Assembly: GCA_021234155.1 (NCBI GenBank)
Contig: JAJEKV010000008.1
Coordinates: 1,693,521-1,757,520, forward strand
Direction: 5' to 3'
DNA: 64,000 nt
From: Isoetes taiwanensis
Lineage: Eukaryota; Streptophyta; Lycopodiopsida; Isoetales; Isoetaceae
A program made the position numbers and the translations under genes. Numbering within the stretch: the stretch's first letter is position 1; each line of letters begins with the position of its first letter. The notes beneath the pieces were generated by a model. It did not search any database and was not told where the DNA came from. It was given only the letters and a program-made list of their open reading frames with translations. Positions 9,038-41,988 of the stretch are shown piece by piece.

Positions 9038-9276
9038 AACAAGGTTTAAAATGAAACGCACTTATTTAAGAAGTGCGTTTGAAAGATTCCTTTTGAAAAT
9101 TTATAAAATTCTAAAATCCCTCTAAAAAGGGCCCTTTTATTACCATTAGTCCAAAGATTTATAAAATTGCTCGTGAAAACAGACATTTTAAGAAGACTTA
9201 GTATTAAGGAAAAACACAAAACAAAAAAAATCCCATTTTAGAGGGGGAAAGAACTACAATGAAATTCAAAGATTTA

Positions 9277-9958
9277 CTATGGGGCAAATTCGTATGAAGA
9301 AATTAGATGCTTTTGTACCTTGTCCCTGAAAACTTTTATATTAGCTGTTTTAGAAGACAAGAAATTTGTTATTTCACAACCATTTTTGCTAAACATCCTA
9401 ATGGACCTTAAAACACATTTGGAGGCAGTCATTGTTTTTGCATCACATAGTATTATAAATGCCAATACATCCACGATATCTTGTAGCTAAGCTGAAGTTT
9501 TAGTTGATGATGCAGTATAAATTTATACCGAGGATACAAAAGTTGAAGTAATGAAGCCCTGTGATTACATGCCCTCCTTTTTTATTCTCGGAGATGTATT
9601 TTTGAATGCACATGTCTTTCTACAACATGGTGATGCTCAGAAGATAGTCAATCTCTTTAGTAATGTTGAGCATATTCATCACAATTACGTCATCTGTAGC
9701 AGTGGGCACCATGCACATTTCTCTGGCAGTGAAGTATTCGTCTGCCTTACCCTTTCCTATATATTTGCAAATAAATAGGTAAACTTCTGAGGGGTTTCTA
9801 CTCCTCGCACCCCTCTGGATAAACCATGTAGTTTCCTTTTCGTCAAACACCTGTGTCACCATAACATTTTGGAGTTCTTTGCCTTTAGTAGCAATTTTTG
9901 AGCTACCTGAAGTGAAGTTCGCATGTATATAGAGAAAAAAAAGTAGAAATAACAACAT
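9277..9958 (-). CDS. Unidentified minus-strand coding region near the left inverted repeat
   Basis: Two minus-strand frames look coding: 9620-9958 (112 residues, hydrophobic start, then KGKELQNVMVTQVFDEKETT and ICKYIGKGKADEYFTAREM) and 9277-9474 (65 residues, ILCDAKTMTASKCVLRS and ITNFLSSKTANIKVFRDK). They may be exons of one gene or a decayed frame. No family is recognised. The position, about 0.3-0.9 kb inside the left TIR and reading toward it, is where a transposon's own gene could sit, but nothing in the residues shows a transposase. A copy of the TATAAATTTATA palindrome (about 9515-9531) lies between them. Confidence 0.35.
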
Positions 9959-10159
9959 GATTCGACTACTTTATGCTCTAACATTGCATTACAAGCTCAG
10001 AAAATTTAGAACCGTTTTAGAACTTTTTAGACTAAAAAACCAAGAAAAGTGTGTAAAATTATCCCTTATGTGTGTTACTTTAGTAGTTTTCAGTTGCCAA
10101 ACCCTTTGGCGAGCAAGAAAAGACCCCAAAAGATTTTTTACGATATATATTTTGCCTCT

Positions 10160-10300
10160 GATTTGCATATATATATACATATATATATAGAAGTCTTATA
10201 TATATATGCAATTCGGTATAAATTTATACTGGTTTCTCCAGATAGATTTATACCATGAAGAGTTCTCTTTTCTTGTCGGATATATATATCTATTATATAT
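10160..10300. repeat. TA-rich microsatellite with two TATAAATTTATA-type palindromes
   Basis: Short TATA tracts at 10167-10206 and 10281-10305 flank the palindromic motif at about 10212-10231 (CGGTATAAATTTATAC) and a half copy near 10244-10256. The same motif forms an array at 40.1-40.4 kb near the other end of the 33-kb segment. Confidence 0.6.
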
Positions 10301-10309
10301 ATACACACG

Positions 10310-11060
10310 TATTAGATGTGTGTTTTGTCATCCCATGCCCATGTTCATAGAGATTCATCCCGGTAGTCAATCACGAAATGAAAGGCCGGGATAATGCCAC
10401 CTCATTGAGGTGCATGGATGGCCATGATGGGCATGCATGGGCATGCATGGGGGCATGCACCACATCCCCAAACCGTTGGATCAAAGGGGAGAATAAATCC
10501 CTAGCCCTTGATTTTTGTGAAGAAGGTGCAAGGAAGGTGCCAAAAAAAAAAAAGTTGGTGCGCTAGATCTCAACCGTTAGATTAAAAGGTGAGCATAAAT
10601 CCTAGCCATTAACTTTTTAATATTAAATTGATTTTTTTCTTTTTAAAGGAGGTGAGGTGGCACCCTCATTAATAAAAAAGGCACCCTCATTAATAAAAAG
10701 GTATTGAGGTGGCAAAGTATTTATGAATGGACTTTCTAGGAAGCTTCCTTCCTACGCTTAATCGTCTTGAAGGCCCGTGAGCTTGCGAGAGGGGGTTGGA
10801 TGAAGGTGGGGCCCCACGCCATTGGATTCCTCTCGTCGAGACCTTTTTAAGGAGTGGTGCTTTGGCACTATCTTATCGCATTTGGAGCCAGCGTGATCGA
10901 TGTGTGATTTTGTCATCCCATGGGTCATGTTCATAGAGATTGATCCTAGCCGTCAAATGACAAAATCAAGGGTTGTTATAATTCCACCTCATGTGATGCA
11001 TGGATGGGCACGATGTGCACATGCATACATATGCACATACATGCATGGGCCATGCACCAT
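10310..11060. repeat. Two diverged direct repeats with catgcatg clusters
   Basis: 10310-10460 and 10890-11050 are alignable (TTTGTCATCCCATG, then GTTCATAGAGATT, then a CCACCTCAT box and tgcatgg runs), about 580 bases apart. Between them are two shorter repeated pieces of the type AACCGTTRGATYAAA (about 10471 and 10571). No coding signal is seen. GCATGCATG clusters also occur in the foldback at the right end (40920-40940, 41690-41710). Confidence 0.6.
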
Positions 11061-11261
11061 GCACATGGGCCGTTAGATGGGGGAAGGTGAAATCTGGATC
11101 GTTCAAACTATAAGAGAGGAAGGCGACAAGAAGTTCCTATGCATGTGGTTAGGTGGCATACATGTGCATGCAAGCATTTATTGTAATCATGAGGTGTTAG
11201 TTGAGGTGGCATGTGCATTTATTTGCCACCATATCTTATCTATATTTAATATATAGATTTT

Positions 11262-11535
11262 GAGGTATGCATTTTTTGCCTTTTAATATAGAATATAAAA
11301 ATCTTAATGTGAAACGTGGCAAGCCATATCTTGCTTTCTTTTCAAGTTTTCTTTCAAACTTTAACCATGAGGACGAGCTTGATGTAACTACATGGCAACA
11401 TTTTTTGCCTTTTATTATAGAAAAACCTTAATGTGGAACGTGGCAAAGCTATATTTTGCGTTCTTTTCATGTTTTCTTTCGATCTTTAACCATGAGGACG
11501 AGCTTGATGTCATGTGAACTACGTGGCAACCTATT
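11262..11535. repeat. Two-copy tandem repeat, unit about 130 bp
   Basis: Each unit carries TTGCCTTTTAWTATAGAA, then AACGTGGCAA, then TTCTTTTCAWGTTTTC, and ends with CATGAGGACGAGCTTGATGT. The copies are roughly 85-90 percent alike by eye. No coding potential was seen. Confidence 0.7.
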
Positions 11536-11639
11536 TGGTTTTCCTTCCAACACCTTTTTTTTTCTAAACTAAGGGCGCCTAGAATCTTTGGAAAAAAATT
11601 CCTCTCCTTCTTCTCTATGAAGTTCTAGCTTCGCACTCC

Positions 11640-39973: not shown

Positions 39974-40080
39974 GTATATATATATATATATATATATATA
40001 TATATATATATATATATATATATATATATATATATATATATATATAAGAATGTGTATATATATATATATACACATGTATG
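39974..40080. repeat. TA microsatellite
   Basis: A (TA)n run of about 75 bases, then GTATATATA words, directly left of the palindrome array. Confidence 0.95.
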
Positions 40081-40109
40081 TATATAAATTGGTTATATAT
40101 AGGTTGTAT

Positions 40110-40460
40110 GCGGTATAAATTTTTATCCGAGAAGAAATCATGCGGTATAAATTTATACCGAGAGAGCTCTCATGAGGTATAAATTTATAAGAGAGGGGAG
40201 CTGGACGAGGGGAGCCTCACGGTATAAATTTATACCGTGAGAGCTCGCAGTTGAATCGAGAGAGCTCATGGTTATAAATTTAGCTCGGGTCCTCTCCTGG
40301 GTATAAATTTATACCGCTTCGAGTCCACTTGCGGTATAAATTTATACCACGAACTCTCTGGCATGTTATATCCACACAACACTATCTATTGTAGTATAAA
40401 TTTATGCCATCTAGAAATTTATTTTGAAGACGTTATGTCCACGCATTGTCATCGCGGTAT
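40110..40460. repeat. Array of the palindrome CGGTATAAATTTATACCG
   Basis: Exact 18-base palindromes lie at 40143-40160 and 40220-40237, the latter extending to a 26-base palindrome (40216-40241). Partial copies are near 40111, 40174, 40270, 40300, 40332, 40391 and 40454. GAGAGCTC words sit between them. The same motif occurs at about 9515 and 10212, near the opposite end of the 33-kb segment. Confidence 0.85.
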
Positions 40461-40514
40461 ACATCAGTCTATAGCAAGACGAATGAGCAAATAAGAGCAA
40501 GTATATAAGATTCC

Positions 40515-40538
40515 AACTTACACTTCAAAGTGTAAGTT
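40515..40538. repeat. Short perfect inverted repeat
   Basis: AACTTACACTT and AAGTGTAAGTT are separated by two bases. Confidence 0.7.
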
Positions 40539-40730
40539 TGTTCAATGAGGCATACTTTCATGTGAAAATGTTTGCTTCGATGAGGCAATGTCAAAATGTG
40601 TTGCATTTTTACAGTTTTGTTCATAGTTTTGTATTGATTTTGAAAACTTTGAATAAAATACCTTTTGGCACTTTTAGTGTGCTTGCGTTTTTTCAATGTC
40701 TATTTTGTTTAGTTTTTGAAAATATTACTA

Positions 40731-40872
40731 TTCTAGAATGGGACTCGCATGAAACCAACAAACCGCCCTTTAGCCTTCGTCCTGTGACCTTCGTCCTCGA
40801 TCCTAGTTTGTAAGGAAGTCCTTTGGTATTCCGGGCGGTTTGTTGGTTTCATCACGAGTCCCATTCTAGAAT
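40731..40872. repeat. Inverted repeat, 38-base arms
   Basis: The arm at 40731-40769 (TTCTAGAATGGGACTCG, then ATGAAACCAACAAACCGCC) is repeated inverted at 40831-40868 with one small insertion, leaving a loop of about 60 bases. It abuts the larger foldback. Confidence 0.85.
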
Positions 40873-41766
40873 CCCATCGATCCGAGACAGCCCGGATCGC
40901 CATTCTAGAATGGGACGAGCATGCATGTTTGCATGCATGTGGCGACATGCCCATTTACGGTTGGGAGTTCGCTATTTTAGGCGCGTTTACGCATCGACTC
41001 CTCGGCGCTTCCTCTTCTCTCTCGTGGTACCTCTTTCTCTTTGAACCCACCCTCCCCCTTCTTTGTTTATTATATTTGTCGGCGTGGCACGCGTAATCGA
41101 CCCTCCACTCACAGGAGGTTTGTTTTGTTTTGTTTTGTTTTGTAGTGTTGGTGATGTGCAGTACGGGTTGGCGGCGGCATTTGTTTAAAACTTCTCCATT
41201 CGTGGGTTTTGGGAGCGATTTCTCGCCTTGCGTTTGTCTAAGCCCCTTGGGCGGAAGGCTTATCACTAGGTTTTTCCTCAAACCCGAAGGGCTGGGTTTT
41301 TAATCCGGTGATAAGCTTTCGGCAGTACACCAACCAACATCTGTTAGCATTGTATTTTGGGGTCCAAATGATATAATTGGATTTTCCCTTTATTTTCGTG
41401 GGTAGAGAAATCGCTCCCAAAACCCACGAATGGAGAAGTCTAAAACAAATGCCGCCGCCAACCCACACTGCACATCACCAACACTACAAAAACAAAACAA
41501 AACAAACCTCCCGTGAGTGGAGGGGTTGATTCTGCCGCGTGCCATGCGACAAATATAATAAACAAAGAAGGGGGAGGGTGGGTTCAAAGAGAAAGAGGCA
41601 TGGCGAGAGAGAAGAGGAAGCGCCGATGAGGAGTCGATGACTAAACGCCGCTAAAATAGCGAACTCCCAACCGGAATGGGCATGCGTTGCCACCGCATGC
41701 ATGCAAAACATGCATGCTCGCCCCATTCTAGAATGGCGATCCGATGTCTCCGGATCGATGGGATTT
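40872..41766. repeat. 0.9-kb foldback (long inverted repeat)
   Basis: Arms 40872-41227 and 41403-41766 are about 90 percent complementary by eye over some 360 bases (CCCATCGATCC at both outer ends; TTTGGGAGCGATTTCTC at both inner ends). The 175-base centre holds another stem (GGAAGGCTTATCAC with GTGATAAGCTTTC). The outer edges carry CATTCTAGAATGG and GCATGCATG words. A transcript would fold into a long hairpin. It lies about 0.2 kb inside the right TIR. No open frame is conserved between the arms. Confidence 0.9.
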
Positions 41767-41988
41767 TCAAACCAAACTAGGGGGCCAAAAAGGGATATCA
41801 AACAATTTTGAATGAAAGCTAAGTTCACACCCCTCAAAAATGATGCCTAAAATTTTCAAATTGTCACACTTGTCACAAATATACCACGAAAAGGACCTTT
41901 TGGGGGGATTTTAGGAATCTTTCAAAGATTCCTTTTTAAAGTGCGTTTTATAGCAAATTAGTGCGTTTCATTTTAAACTTTGTTAAAC

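Follow-up and report, generated by a model that had tools for sequence, protein, structure and literature searches.

The 64,000-nucleotide stretch of Isoetes taiwanensis DNA analysed here (the window; positions 1,693,521 to 1,757,520 of contig JAJEKV010000008.1, assembly GCA_021234155.1) contains, at positions 9038 to 41984, a sequence bounded by terminal inverted repeats (TIRs) that an initial annotation had read as a giant 33-kb TIR element with gene cargo. We find that this copy is a nested insertion, namely a 2.2-kb TIR element that was filled later at a TA repeat. The TIR element appears to have supplied the landing place and not to have carried the cargo. The joint reading that we favour, and to which we assign a probability of roughly 75%, is a 2.2-kb TIR element nested in the long terminal repeat (LTR) of a terminal-repeat retrotransposon in miniature (TRIM), with a chain of TA-docking Penelope-like retroelements at its own TA tract. 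Within it, the retroelement family and the manner of priming are the parts that we infer.

Both ends of the TIR element were read directly in the window. It begins at 9038, where CATAAAC is joined to AACAAGGTTTAAAATGAAACGCAC, and stops at 41984, where GTGCGTTTCATTTTAAACTTTGTT is joined to AAACGTCTAG. The outermost 30 bases of the two ends match in inverted orientation at 28 of 30 positions, and a weaker gapped match extends to about 100 bp. From base composition, about 3.5e-5 such 30-base pairs would be expected by chance per 64 kb, and 1.7e-7 when the 4-bp duplication is included. An inverted 24-mer scan of the window (at most 2 mismatches, words with at least 22 A+T left out) returned the end pair as the sole pair spaced by more than 1 kb that is not made of TA repeats. 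A looser control, in which 6 of 20,000 random 120-base window pairs equalled the gapped score of the ends (these were not inspected singly), gives weaker support.

The flanks of the element are the two halves of one TRIM LTR (LTR1), whose left part (8933-9037, plus strand) includes one copy of AAAC at 9034-9037. The stretch at 41985-42350 (plus strand) holds the second AAAC copy (41985-41988), the remainder of LTR1, the TRIM interior and LTR2 (42193-42350), which is uninterrupted and thus preserves the empty site. The two LTRs are identical at 142 of 155 aligned bases, and CCTAC is present at both outer sides of the TRIM. Although 5 bp (TAAAC) are common to both flanks, only AAAC gives symmetric ends; target duplications of 2, 3 or 5 bp were rejected for this reason, and because 14 other complete copies also have exactly 4 bp. 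The inverted ends, the AAAC duplication, the empty site in the sister LTR and an origin as a TIR transposon inserted into a TRIM LTR, all proposed in the initial annotation, are therefore upheld.

The genome searched comprised 1,658,258,908 bases in 1,110 contigs, the window being C1089:1693521-1757520, internal to its contig (C numbers denote contigs and L numbers collected loci). The left 101 bp of the element were found at 40 places with 100% identity and at one with 89% (best 40 of 1,200 candidates scored), while 40 matches to the right 101 bp were scored, of 582 candidates. The second left-end match, 89% identical and on the same strand as the first at a distance of 11 bp, lies in L019 (C1047:5125506-5125694), where one TIR copy seems from the sequence to have inserted beside the end of another. 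Twenty other copies were fetched by their left end, each with up to 10 kb of sequence. The right end was found within 10 kb in 14 of them, and none was found within the fetched stretch in the other six. Twelve of the 14 complete copies are uninterrupted and measure 2,169-2,275 bp; the remaining two measure 2,913 and 4,747 bp. Exact 4-bp duplications flank all 14 as well as the window copy (tact four times, aaaa twice, and taca, aaca, atct, ttca, tctt, ctct, agag and ctat once each), with L011 and L012 having identical flanks, so that 13 separate sites are represented rather than 14. Pairing of listed left and right ends on the same contig yielded twelve sizes: seven of 2,144-2,203 bp, five of which are copies already counted among those fetched, followed by 3,427, 5,854, 5,975, 6,118 and 32,947 bp, the last being the window.

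Paired ends elsewhere in the genome therefore enclose about 2.2 kb, instead of the few hundred bases that the initial annotation had named as the outcome contradicting a giant element, and the extra length consists of insertions. A giant TIR transposon that moved as a single 33-kb unit, with a reverse transcriptase (RT), a B3 gene and a tandem array as cargo, would account for the one TIR pair, the one 4-bp duplication and the empty site, and array-type sequence is likewise present in L020 and L027, at or close to the TA tract of the TIR copy. We nevertheless regard it as highly improbable, given that 12 of the 14 complete fetched copies, at 2.17-2.28 kb, run on across the insert site and lack the same interior. 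Moreover, the array sequence of L027 is only 73-85% like that of the window, whereas its left arm is 93% like the window's; no right end occurs at L027 within about 15.8 kb of the left one; and RT matches lie far from the listed TIR ends. The B3 frames, the RT and the tandem array are indeed present, but all three are located within the later insertion, and are not cargo of the TIR element.

Compared with the intact copy L025, the window copy differs by a 29,699-bp insertion at the internal TA tract and a 1,032-bp foldback insertion at position 1969. The left arm, beginning with the TIR, spans 9038-10292 (plus), and the right arm is split into 40034-40732 and 41763-41984 (both plus), the latter with the right TIR. 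Between the arms lies the 29.7-kb insertion (10290-40033, limits approximate because of the TA repeat on both sides), and the foldback insertion occupies 40733-41762, with arms at 40870-41224 and 41405-41765 that are 88.6% complementary. A relative of the foldback element is found in L018, outside its TIR copy.

The TA segment is a break hotspot of the TIR element, which speaks for the reading of TA-docking at this site: of 35 distinct copies that were mapped, namely the window copy, 20 located through the left end and 14 through the right end together with 1.5 kb of upstream sequence, 10 have a break in the interval 1144-1325, which contains the TA tracts. These are the window copy, L013, L020, L024, L027, L033, L035, L036, L039 and L043. 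Breaks elsewhere occur in L010, L016, L026, L028 and L042, at the window foldback, and once more in the L036 copy (L049), which is broken twice. For eight mapped copies only the unbroken right part is seen, so that breaks further left would escape; L037 (the 3,427-bp copy) must have one.

The 29.7-kb insertion is a chain of units with (TA)n between them. When TA tracts of at least 12 nt are counted (merged when less than 40 nt apart), all ten of those in the window lie between 9038 and 41984, the other 31 kb having none. The chain opens with a module ending in ACTTG before (TA)n (10290-12048, plus), followed by an array of four head-to-tail units of 2.6-3.15 kb (12046-23598, plus) that are 92-97% identical and have (TA)n at each junction. 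Next comes a 4.1-kb module ending in ATTCTTG before (TA)n (23717-27822), which contains a Cys/His-rich open frame of 236 amino acids (25182-25889, minus) without a Pfam match. This frame is followed by one of 73 amino acids (together 24916-25889, minus), to which a short intron at about 25135-25220, placed by eye, would join it. The chain continues with a partial copy of the RT unit (28009-30452, minus), the 8.6-kb RT unit itself (30453-39066, minus) and a module, X, ending in TTTCTTG with (TA)n at both sides (39146-39974, plus). Relatives of X, or of its end, are found at TA tracts of the TIR copies L024, L035 and L036, and short matches only in L033 and L039. Tandem pairs of their own, 93-94% identical, occur in L024 (period 3.9 kb) and L027 (3.6 kb).

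The modules at 10290-12048, 23717-27822 and 39146-39974 share one orientation, and all have CTTG as their last bases, immediately followed by (TA)n. Helitrons were considered for them, as some start with TC, and were rejected since the observed ends are CTTG and not CTRR. Searches of ten further frames against Pfam gave B3 and weak sub-threshold matches only, five frames compared with PHROGs gave nothing better than E 0.013, and Rfam gave no match at the gathering score, the weak miRNA-type matches falling mostly on TA repeats.

The RT unit contains an open reading frame (ORF) of 577 amino acids without a Pfam match (34957-36690, minus) and a 762-amino-acid RT ORF (32617-34905, minus) with an RVT_1 match at E 4.2e-4, below the Pfam cut-off. 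Two B3-like frames (30961-31810, plus; E 4.1e-5 and 0.0011, both below the cut-off) lie past the RT stop but before the unit's 3' end, on the strand opposite to the RT. We discarded an LTR retrotransposon as the source of this block, as its repeats have no TG start or CA end and the two ORFs have no integrase or RNase H match. When the RT protein was searched in the genome, the best 59 of 4,724 candidate places were scored, itself included; the other 58 are 58-77% identical to it, and 36 of the 59 have no internal stop. Not one of these 58 has any of the 40 TIR left ends listed within 390 kb of it. Judged from sequence, the RT family thus appears to be large and separate from the TIR element. 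Head-to-tail RT genes also occur: C1058 has three, spaced by 8.8 and 12.2 kb, and C976 has two, 6.75 kb apart. Comparison of the RT with Protein Data Bank sequences gave one chance-level match (E 0.41), an AlphaFold model of residues 280-762 alone had a mean confidence (pLDDT) of 34.5, and a search of viral contigs returned 8 pattern stretches, none of them confirmed.

The evidence that ties coding and non-coding units together is a common 3' end, consisting, in motif orientation, of a long hairpin, a short hairpin with GGAGGTAGG, and (TA)n. It is found on array units 2 (17687-17790, plus) and 3 (20826-20928, plus), each with two predicted hairpins, GGTAGGAGGTAGG and then (TA)n; on the RT unit (30453-30545, minus), with predicted hairpins, GGTAGGAGGTAGGG and then (TA)n; and on the units of L024 and L027. 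A scan of 360,447 bases of collected loci, some of them overlapping, found 8 places that match GGTAGGAGGTAGG with at most 2 mismatches. Five of these adjoin TA repeats and have the strongest folds among the eight, with energies of -42.8 to -52.0 kcal/mol against -12.8 to -28.6 for the other three. The fold z-scores of the five ends are -4.81, -5.77, -3.94, -3.45 and -6.30, and none of 200 shuffles folds as well.

The 300-400 nt that follow six RT genes were also examined; one gene (C261) was chosen as the motif was already listed there, and the five others were taken blind. The end AGTTGGC-hairpin-CCTTCCGG..GGAGG(T/A)AGG-(TA)n was found on C261, C1053 and C1033, no more than about 160 nt past the RT match. 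This makes 3 of the 6 genes tested, or 2 of 5 when the preselected C261 is not counted. In the RT unit of the window the same end lies 2.15 kb past the RT stop, with the B3-like frames in between. The three further ends have fold z-scores of -5.73, -5.70 and -4.60, again with none of 200 shuffles folding as well. Covariation in the long hairpin was counted over five ends (RT unit, L024 unit, C261, C1053 and C1033), the array-type ends of the array units and L027 being left out: 98.5% of cells are paired, 3 of 14 pairs have changed on both sides and 9 of 14 are invariant. When the partner was slid by 1-3 columns, the paired share was 61.2% at most; the covariation score was attained by 2 of 500 shuffles.

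A genome signature defined as GGAGGTAGG, 0-12 bases and TATATATATATA gave 195 + 542 = 737 matches, many of which represent several lengths of one site, while the reversed pattern gave 0 + 0. The matches listed contain 52 distinct sites, which come from the first contigs and are not a random sample. Among these sites, 14 of 16 neighbours within 12 kb lie on the same strand, where the neighbours within one array are not independent, and spacings recur (e.g. 4,693/4,694/4,724, 9,190/9,201 and 8,003/8,053).

A second set of observations concerns incomplete copies. The partial copy of the RT unit is head to tail with it and 2.4 kb long (2305 of 2388 bases identical); it comprises the 5' 2.4 kb and the first 35 nt of the ORF, and gives way to TA repeats at a TATATAT that lies 35-42 nt inside the ORF. 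The last array unit and L020 pass into TA repeats at GGAAAGTATATAT, and the second L024 copy does so at CAAGTTTATATAT.

We propose that the RT unit is a Penelope-like retroelement (PLE) without a recognised endonuclease. Its RT would recognise the hairpin-GGAGGTAGG-(TA)n 3' end, both on its own RNA and on non-coding partners, and copying would start at TA-repeat DNA, the U/A repeats of the RNA pairing with the TA repeats of the target. Each new copy would then land in a TA tract, and the chain would grow longer. A Penelope-like element with copying started at TA-repeat DNA is suggested by the parallels in rotifers, lizards and Selaginella/Terminons, taken with the partial copies at TATATAT.

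What the units share with PLEs is an RT, a partial-tandem direct repeat reaching a short way into the ORF, AT-rich targets and tandem organisation; a partial-tandem copy whose repeat includes the ORF start is seen in the window RT unit, and RT genes stand in tandem on C1058 and C976. The direct repeat covers the first 12-14 ORF codons here and the first 12 in rotifer Penelope, but is 2.4 kb long here versus about 0.2 kb there, as given in the cited part of that study (PMC3846280). In lizard Penelope, the relevant section describes reverse transcription that starts inside the ORF start, a preference for AT-rich DNA and tandem organisation; it also describes an RT start that is not homologous to the cut DNA, from which the proposed U/A-TA pairing would differ (PMC11167929). 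Also unlike PLEs, no GIY-YIG domain or hammerhead was found here, and the hairpin-GGAGGTAGG-(TA)n 3' end is present. A hammerhead ribozyme in the repeat is reported for many PLEs. Endonuclease-deficient PLEs are described, in the portion of the source cited, at telomeres of the lycophyte Selaginella, and rotifer Terminons as forming long chains with captured genes (PMC12477314). Our units resemble both in having an RT without a recognised endonuclease and chains of units with other genes between them. They differ in sitting in internal TA tracts where those elements are, by the same account, telomere-associated, although no search for telomere copies was made. A broader proposal is that a large and diversified endonuclease-less Penelope-like lineage exists in this lycophyte and uses internal (TA)n as its relatives use telomere ends, with TA DNA priming on U/A repeats behind the structured 3' end or on internal UAUAUA, forming head-to-tail chains and moving non-coding partners in trans. 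We offer this tentatively, as somewhat less than an even chance.

Several points weigh against the retroelement reading. The RT class is tentative, drawing on a weak RVT_1 match below the cut-off and on the motifs YIDD and KAHK. No Pfam match to a GIY-YIG endonuclease domain was found in either of the two ORFs of the RT unit that were searched, and no hammerhead ribozyme was found at E≤5 in 9038-41984; one hammerhead core-like pattern exists in the window, outside the TIR element. The common 3' end is absent within 400 nt downstream of the RT matches on C1025, C1026 and C1058. In the three further RT ends, out of 8 that were folded, the second half of the long arm pairs in the best fold with more distant sequence, so that the long hairpin used for the covariation count has a competing fold there; the best fold of C261 also lacks the short hairpin, and array-type and RT-type ends differ in hairpin sequence. 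Lastly, array unit 1 and the second L027 copy do not end at TATATAT, and deletion or unequal exchange between TA tracts could also make partial copies and arrays. These points leave the nested nature of the window copy untouched.

The last of them can be put as an alternative in its own right, in which a few ordinary insertions were followed by DNA recombination and slippage between TA tracts that produced the arrays and partial copies, and TA-primed reverse transcription played no part. All junctions are TA repeats, the partial copies stop at internal TATATAT as a TA-tract deletion would have it, and the deviant endings of array unit 1 and the second L027 copy also fit. This account leaves unexplained why different types of unit have the same 3' end directly before (TA)n, and why TIR copies elsewhere hold different material at their TA tracts; we rate it as possible, though doubtful. 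The 29.7 kb could also be a microsatellite-targeted array of DNA elements, akin to the SaTar and Micron Mutator-like elements (MULEs), of which the RT unit is one unrelated member. In guayule and rice, SaTars form non-nested arrays in which different elements are linked as modules by (TA)n (PMC5907723), the chain in the window is likewise modular and microsatellite-flanked, and the unclassified CTTG-ending modules (10290-12048, 23717-27822 and X) could be such elements. SaTar and Micron elements are, however, described there as non-autonomous MULEs defined by TIRs (PMC5907723), and our unit starts and ends show no inverted match, as judged by eye only. Here an RT-coding unit and non-coding units have the same 3' end, RT genes elsewhere have it close behind the stop, and the array sits in the TA tract of another element. 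A SaTar-like origin is therefore unlikely, more so than recombination, and we retain the Penelope-like chain as the preferred reading.

As to the TIR element itself, its intact 2.2-kb copies are non-coding; the longest stop-to-stop frame in the window left arm has 116 amino acids and no Pfam match. Two subfamilies can be distinguished, and the window copy has the right end of the second, ATTAGTGCG. An autonomous partner was not found among the copies collected, and the early-diverging L010 and L016 were rejected as candidates because both run into other retroelement sequence. The termini are AAC...GTT, which does not agree with Ginger, whose termini are given as 5'-TG...CA-3' (PMC10741241). 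Sola elements are more similar in their 4-bp duplications, variable ends and a reported range of TIR lengths that includes ours, and are known from a moss, as far as the same source is quoted here (PMC10741241). Our element differs in having no transposase, and the likeness is one of description. The TIR core has no match in the viral contigs, and its letters have none in the text of the papers searched. About ten copies of a palindrome (consensus GGTATAAATTTATACC) occur at 40112-40348 of the window and at the corresponding place in other copies. TIR copies differ from one another more often near CpG than elsewhere, such sites making up 17.5% of positions and 31.6% of differences. This enrichment, and an assembly built, according to its cited description, from Nanopore reads polished with Illumina (PMC8566536), mean that identities between repeats may be underestimates.

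Titles and abstract openings contained no description of this TIR family or of TA-docking Penelope-like elements in Isoetes; the exact combination of terms was not searched, and most subscription papers were outside the scope. That an apparent giant transposon is an ordinary nested insertion cautions against reading size and cargo from one TIR pair. If confirmed, the retroelement reading would describe an abundant TA-docking plant lineage whose coding and non-coding members have a 3' RNA structure in common. It would provide one cause for TA-linked arrays in plant genomes, and would allow a test of whether retroelements that attach to telomeres represent a special case of repeat-primed reverse transcription.

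Elsewhere in the window, a stretch at 62891-63059, outside the TIR element, is 76-86% like part of the array units (14004-14175) and represents a dispersed relative. An open frame of 1,012 amino acids at 44025-47063 (minus), also outside the TIR element, contains 12 PPR_2 stretches and corresponds to a long pentatricopeptide repeat protein. Fragments of LTR retrotransposon polyproteins are found at 59172-59819 (plus; GAG-pre-integrase) and at 8262-8648 (minus; a sub-threshold integrase core).

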